NCBI RefSeq assembly: GCF_007753265.1
Contig: NZ_CP036349.1
Coordinates: forward strand, 310,001 to 374,000
Direction: 5' to 3'
DNA from: Botrimarina mediterranea
GTDB lineage: Bacteria > Planctomycetota > Planctomycetia > Pirellulales > Lacipirellulaceae
Length of the DNA stretch: 64,000 nt
The number at the start of each line of letters is the position of its first letter. Position 1 is the stretch's first letter. Position numbers and translations under genes: made by a program. Shown one piece after another: positions 56,851-59,066 of this stretch. The notes under the pieces were generated by a model. That model ran no database searches, was not told the origin of the DNA, and saw only the letters and a program-made list of their open reading frames with translations.

Positions 56851-56933
56851 GTGCGAGCCGGGACGCTTCAGCTCTCGGAGGGACCTTGGCGCCCGCTTCC
56901 CACCGAGGACTAACGTCCCTGGCTCGCCGTCGG
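56851..56933. repeat. Core-containing palindromic repeat (copy B1)
   Basis: Outer stem GCGAGCCGGGACG / CGTCCCTGGCTCGC (56853-56865 with 56915-56928). The loop contains TTGGCGCCCGCTT (56886 on) followed by CACCGAG, as in copy A at 9216. Confidence 0.8.
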
Positions 56934-57100: not shown

Positions 57101-57180
57101 AGGCGAGCCGGCGACGTTAGTCGTCGGTGGGGAGCGGGCGCCAGGGTTCCACCGGAGACCAACGTCCCCGGCTCGCCGGA
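57101..57180. repeat. Core-containing palindromic repeat (copy B2)
   Basis: Outer stem GGCGAGCCGGCGACGTT (57102 on) pairs with AACGTCCCCGGCTCGCC (57161-57177). The core, in inverse orientation, is at 57123-57144. The left arm is copied exactly inside the downstream gene at 57372-57396. Confidence 0.82.
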
Positions 57181-57208: not shown

Positions 57209-58024
57209 ATGGACCAGCCGCCTTCTCTGCCGTCGCCACGGGCCCTCACGCAGCGTCTGGAGAGCTTGCAGGCGGCGGGGGTAACTTTGCTGCCGCGGCG
57301 TGAGGGACGCGTTCTAGAGGCCCCTACGGCGACGAGAGAGGCGGTTCCGACAGCCCCTCTTAGGGTTCCTCCGACGACTAACGTCGCCGGCTCGCCCGCC
57401 CCTCCGGCGGCGACCAGCGCGCCCCTCGTCCCCCCTCCCCCCTCCCCGGTCCCCGCGGCGTCAGCCGCCCCCACCCTCGAGGTCCTCTGCTCGGAGGTCG
57501 CGGGCTGCACCGCTTGCCCCGAGTTGGCCGCGACGCGGACACAAACCGTCTTTGGCGTCGGCAACCCAACGGCGCGGCTGTGCTTCATGGGTGAGGCGCC
57601 GGGCGCCGACGAGGACCGGCTCGGCGAGCCCTTCGTCGGCCGGGCCGGGCAGCTGCTCGACAAGATGATCGAGGCCTGCACCCTCAGCCGCGGCGAGGTC
57701 TATATCCTCAACGTGCTGAAGTGCCGCCCGCCGGGGAACCGCAACCCGACGCCCGACGAGGCCCGCAACTGCCGCGGCTACTTGCAGCGGCAGCTCGAGC
57801 TGATCGACCCGGAGTACATCTGCTGCCTCGGCGCCGTCGCGGCCCAGAACTTCCTGCAAACGGACACGCCGATCGGCCGACTCCGCGGCCGCGTCCACGA
57901 ACACGCCGGCCGCAAGGTGGTCTGCACCTACCACCCGGCCTACCTGCTGCGCAACCCCTCGGCGAAGAAGTACGCCTGGGACGACCTCAAGCTGCTAATG
58001 CGGCAACTGGGCGTGGAGCTATAG
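57209..58024 (+). CDS. Type-4 (Fe-S) uracil-DNA glycosylase
   Basis: 271 residues. The conserved domain (about 88-270) has four candidate cluster cysteines (Cys100, 103, 172, 188), GEAPGADED (128-136), [25 protein letters not shown] and [11 protein letters not shown] with the late His. It excises uracil from DNA, including at elevated temperatures. The first 87 residues are a Pro/Ala-rich linker; residues 55-63 (PTTNVAGSP) are encoded by an exact copy of an intergenic repeat arm. Confidence 0.93.
57372..57396. repeat. Repeat arm translated within the uracil-DNA glycosylase gene (copy B3)
   Basis: These 25 bases are an exact inverse copy of 57102-57126 from the adjacent intergenic repeat. They code for part of the N-terminal linker. 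Confidence 0.85.
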
Positions 58025-58984: not shown

Positions 58985-59066
58985 ACGGCGAGCCGGTGAC
59001 GTTGGTTGCTGGAGTGTAAGCGGGTACCAGCTTTACTCCGGTCGCTAACGCTTCCGGCTCGCCGTC
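58985..59066. repeat. Core-containing palindromic repeat (copy B4)
   Basis: Outer stem ACGGCGAGCCGG / CCGGCTCGCCGT (58985-58996 with 59054-59065). The loop holds AAGCGGGTACCAG (59018-59030), the inverse core. It begins two bases after the preceding stop codon. Confidence 0.82.

Follow-up and report, generated by a model that had tools for sequence, protein, structure and literature searches.

A short segment translated within a uracil-DNA glycosylase (UDG) of Botrimarina mediterranea is very likely a half-REPIN, a single REP of a RAYT-associated class left by an ancestral REPIN insertion whose other arm was lost or decayed, and which was tolerated as a spacer. The insertion is neither peculiar to UDG nor recent, and UDG is one of many proteins with in-frame REPs in this planctomycete.

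The udg gene lies at 57209..58024 on the forward strand of the window (the whole 64,000-nt stretch of DNA that was analysed) and encodes 271 aa. Its product scored 204.6 bits against TIGR00758 (UDG family 4; cut-off 125.3), with the match beginning at aa 100, and also matched Pfam UDG. This whole-domain score above the curated cut-off, together with a Cys pair (C100 and C103) that is invariant in the orthologue alignment, places the protein in family 4. It consists of an N-terminal helix, a disordered Pro/Ala linker and a catalytic core; in the AlphaFold (AF2) model the helix spans residues 10–22, pLDDT is below 50 almost throughout aa 29–81, and the confident core starts at ∼90.

Within the linker-coding part of udg, positions 57371–57396 are the exact 26-nt reverse complement of intergenic positions 57102–57127, and a wider match (57102–57130 with 57368–57396) is complementary at 28/29 positions. 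The sequence-only reading had reported an exact inverse copy of 25 nt at 57372–57396, in frame before the catalytic domain; the copy is confirmed, the exact run being one nucleotide longer, as is its placement, given the reading frame and a TIGR00758 match from aa 100. The segment is read CCG ACG ACT AAC GTC GCC GGC TCG CC, giving PTTNVAGSP at aa 55–63, which fall inside the low-confidence, predicted disordered linker, so that an insertion there would have been tolerated. A AGGGTTCC-type inner spacer flank (57362..57370, forward strand) is common to the udg repeat and to the intergenic arm at 57152–57177, indicating that the copied piece was slightly longer than the arm itself. When the udg copy was examined for the two inverted arms of a REPIN, one arm was found: the best candidate for a left-arm remnant matched at 15/28 positions, and 166 of 300 shuffles did equally well. 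As no second arm is detectable, the forward-strand copy at 57371..57396 is a singlet, and because no remnant of its partner is recognizable, the insertion of a full REPIN in udg is inferred.

The repeat belongs to a large family. Its core has five matches in the window (≤3 mismatches; 0.00 expected in shuffles) and, with ≤2 mismatches, 80 forward and 84 reverse matches in the genome, as compared with 0 for a reversed-pattern control; leaving one loop base free raises this to 82 + 88, or ∼170 copies in 5.87 Mb. Each arm comprises an 8-bp stem, a 4-nt loop (mostly TAAC) and a constant CTCGCC tail. Stem sequences vary while pairing is kept (CCCACGAT/ATCGTGGG, CCGACGAC/GTCGCCGG, CCGGTCGC/GCTACCGG). 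In an unbiased test of the stem, in which sites were picked by CTCGCC alone and the expectation was obtained by re-dealing the stem halves, 7–8 of the 8 pairs were present at 88/751 intergenic sites (∼6 expected) and at 20 coding sites (∼4 expected), both above chance. Arms are often paired in inverted orientation, most commonly 50 nt apart. One such REPIN-like dimer, 76 nt in length with arms at this spacing, lies just upstream of udg (57102..57177) and forms a long hairpin (z −4.04); a second, more diverged intergenic dimer occupies 56851..56928 (left arm from 56851, right arm 56903–56928), and a diverged pair is found at 58987..59063 (58987–59007 on the minus strand, about 59038–59063 on the plus strand).

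A short hairpin of 20–50 nt, a high copy number, a mostly intergenic location (22/151 sites within called CDS, though 78% of the DNA was called coding) and a conserved tag adjoining the stem (GGCGAG on the reverse strand, NGAG at RAYT-flanking copies) identify the family as a REP element, often arranged in REPIN-like inverted pairs. With CGAG as its tag, it falls outside the GTAG- and CGTC-tagged REP superfamilies. Exact REP cores are nearly missing from one third of the chromosome, ∼2.1–3.85 Mb (2/70 exact matches).

The genome contains five matches to Y1 transposases. One gene, at 4084871–4085422, has REP hairpins with a GGCTC tail on both sides, and its best match is NCBIfam REP_Tyr_transpos at 46.6 bits, below the cut-off of 80; the homologue in the congener G001 (692335–692880) lies between two REP dimers. 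At L179 and L180 a Y1/HUH gene is flanked by its cognate REPs, with hairpins of the same class on either side, as in a RAYT system. The homologue is present in this genome (G000), G001 and G003, and was not found in the congener G002, which also has none of these REPs. We therefore regard the RAYT-like gene as a candidate transposase for the class, which may have carried out the insertion in udg. Other RAYT-like genes, L182 in G001 and L184 in G000, are flanked by different REP classes (CCGAGGGC-TCGC-GCCCACGG and CCCGACGC-TAGC-GCGT), which hints at several RAYT–REP pairs in the genus.

Copies of the REP number 170, 61, 23 and 0 in G000, G001, G003 and G002, respectively, and the class is patchy in the Lacipirellulaceae (a family assignment based on Aeoliella straminimaris), being abundant also in G039 and G042 and near background in most others. 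Alignment of UDG orthologues revealed the same insert in the same place in G001, identical at 27/29 nt and encoding PPTTGVAGSP, with one change; the segment was missing from G003, G002 and the other aligned family members. The only orthologue with the peptide thus also has the repeat DNA, contrary to what a peptide conserved independently of the repeat would predict. G000 and G001 group together in the UDG tree with moderate support (88/83). On this distribution the insert probably dates to their common ancestor, a single insertion being the simplest reading. The arm 250 bp upstream is just one of ∼170 copies, and the insert is older than the separation of G000 and G001, so that its origin as a local duplicate of that arm is not supported.

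A gene-level survey of 2.06 Mb, which used a simple codon-usage gene caller that itself shortens udg, covered 151 REP-like sites ending in the CTCGCC tail and placed 22 of them within called genes. For 14 of these the reading frame yields PTTNVAGS or GEPATLVV; this preference is only a hint, since the two arms of a dimer do not count as independent cases. CarB (G000:C1:5845967-5849404; L167, L168–L170) carries two in-frame REP dimers, both common to G000 and G001; G003 and G002 each have an empty site 2, and site 1 is a decayed half-REP in G003. A HemD–HemE fusion (G000:C1:5601543-5603588; L175) has an in-frame dimer in its linker, which is represented by a half in G001 and is absent from G003 and G002. 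A DUF1844 protein (G000:C1:1024667-1025080; L163) has a full in-frame dimer, and different single halves are present in G001 and G003. Further in-frame dimers or arms occur in a Cons_hypoth698 membrane protein, an unassigned protein and a methyltransferase (G000:C1:5116129-5117682, 5110440-5111477 and 1119089-1119874). Coding matches with six of the eight pairs were at chance level (27 observed, 29.3 expected); that in the Fpg gene (5390527) and others like it were rejected, and such matches were counted as REPs only if otherwise supported, as in CarB and probably EF-G. The ValRS (G000:C1:719716) and MnmE (5410107) genes share an identical 26-mer, CCCGCGGCTAGCGCCGACGGCTCACC, possibly of another repeat class.

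Were translation of UDG to start downstream of the repeat, the segment would be 5′ untranslated DNA and its apparent frame an artefact of annotation. N-terminal codon usage is indeed weak, and the simple gene caller begins udg at 57587. Nevertheless, the frame contains no ATG, GTG or TTG from the end of the repeat up to residue 106, itself beyond the Cys100-x2-Cys103 pair, and the first in-frame starts after the repeat, TTG 57524 (aa 106) and ATG 57587 (aa 127), are both inside the conserved core. Moreover, the start region is conserved: family members have an LESL..AGV motif ahead of the linker, and its residues E18, L20, A23 and G24 are common to 16/16 aligned orthologues. A start beyond 57396 was accordingly rejected as very improbable, and translation from ATG 57209 very probably runs through the repeat. 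It is also unlikely that G000 and G001 acquired the repeat at the same linker by two independent insertions, or through gene conversion by other REPs. The poor alignment of the linker flanks and the many donor copies in both genomes would allow this, but position, frame and orientation are all identical in the two genes, the loops (TAAC and TGGC) differ as divergence predicts, TGGC being rare in G001, and the inserts in CarB, HemD–HemE and DUF1844 are likewise common to both genomes.

Retention by selection, either because the repeat forms a DNA or mRNA hairpin regulating udg or because its peptide makes a useful linker, seems quite unlikely. In its favour, the identity of the repeat between G000 and G001 exceeds the 57–67% of the flanking linker, all nine third positions of its codons are identical, and in other species many REPs lie within genes for replication and repair (Di Nocera et al., 2013; PMC3733652). 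However, third positions of the catalytic region are 70% identical, and 15 of its 166 nine-codon windows show full identity as well, so the excess conservation of the repeat is not significant; being better conserved than its flanks, though not beyond the catalytic region, the repeat leaves some room for selection or gene conversion. The disorder of the insertion site also argues against selection, as does the folding of the udg REP alone, little better than that of shuffles (z −1.17). REPs are also found in metabolic genes, CarB and HemE among them, so no bias towards repair is evident. A broader proposal is that the RAYT–REPIN system repeatedly supplies proteins of the genus with flexible linkers in ready-made form, REPs being in frame in many conserved proteins and mostly read as Pro/Gly/Thr-rich GEPATLVV or PTTNVAGS, and that some, the udg copy included, were kept for their linker properties; we consider this unlikely.

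The peptide is best read as the product of a half-REPIN that is immobile and neutral and was accommodated as a spacer. A REPIN, comprising two inverted REPs, would have entered the linker-coding part of udg in the common ancestor of G000 and G001 in a stop-free frame; the partner arm would then have been lost or have decayed, leaving an immobile REP read as PTTNVAGSP. The residues, which follow the short helix at the N terminus and precede the glycosylase core, would serve as a spacer with little or no effect. The earlier suggestion that the repeat adds new peptide to a DNA-repair enzyme thus holds as far as in-frame translation in the linker is concerned, while an added function found no support. 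The udg case is a clean and datable one in which such an enzyme has gained residues from a mobile-type repeat in a bacterium; it comes with a donor family, a candidate for the transposase, relatives that have an empty site, and a structural explanation of why the insert was tolerated. With its inserts in CarB, HemD–HemE, DUF1844 and other proteins, the genus offers a setting in which to ask whether proteins simply tolerate REPs or have their linkers shaped by them.

In-frame insertion of REPs has precedents in other bacteria. REPs were reported inside genes of many species, with single or dimeric elements in frame in functional genes, among them uvrA, uvrB, recB, polA and DNA ligase; it was argued that insertions in linkers may be neutral and speculated that REP insertions modify repair proteins (Di Nocera et al., 2013; PMC3733652). 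In its main text that study makes no mention of udg, and no description of the present family was found in the literature searched. The elements studied here similarly lie in frame inside functional genes, but their tag is CGAG/NGAG rather than GTAG or CGTC. The likeness to Rickettsia palindromic elements drawn by the sequence-only reading is fair for the event, since those palindromic elements are likewise read in frame within numerous unrelated proteins; the comparison covered this behaviour. They are about 150 bp long (PMC10969869), in contrast to the 26-nt arms and ∼76-nt dimers here, whose anatomy is that of REP/REPIN elements with a RAYT. In REPIN/RAYT systems, inverted REP doublets form hairpins and the RAYT gene is flanked by its own REPs (PMC3116915; PMC8266576), and REP singlets are regarded as defunct REPIN remnants (Bertels and Rainey, 2011; PMC3116915). 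The inverted doublets, hairpins, singlets and REP-flanked RAYT-like gene described here match those systems, including TnpA-REP (PMC8266576), and differ in belonging to a planctomycete, Lacipirellulaceae-related family and in the presence of several dimers within genes. To the known in-frame REPs they add a udg case, dated by phylogeny, and an NGAG-tagged class of REPs from a planctomycete.
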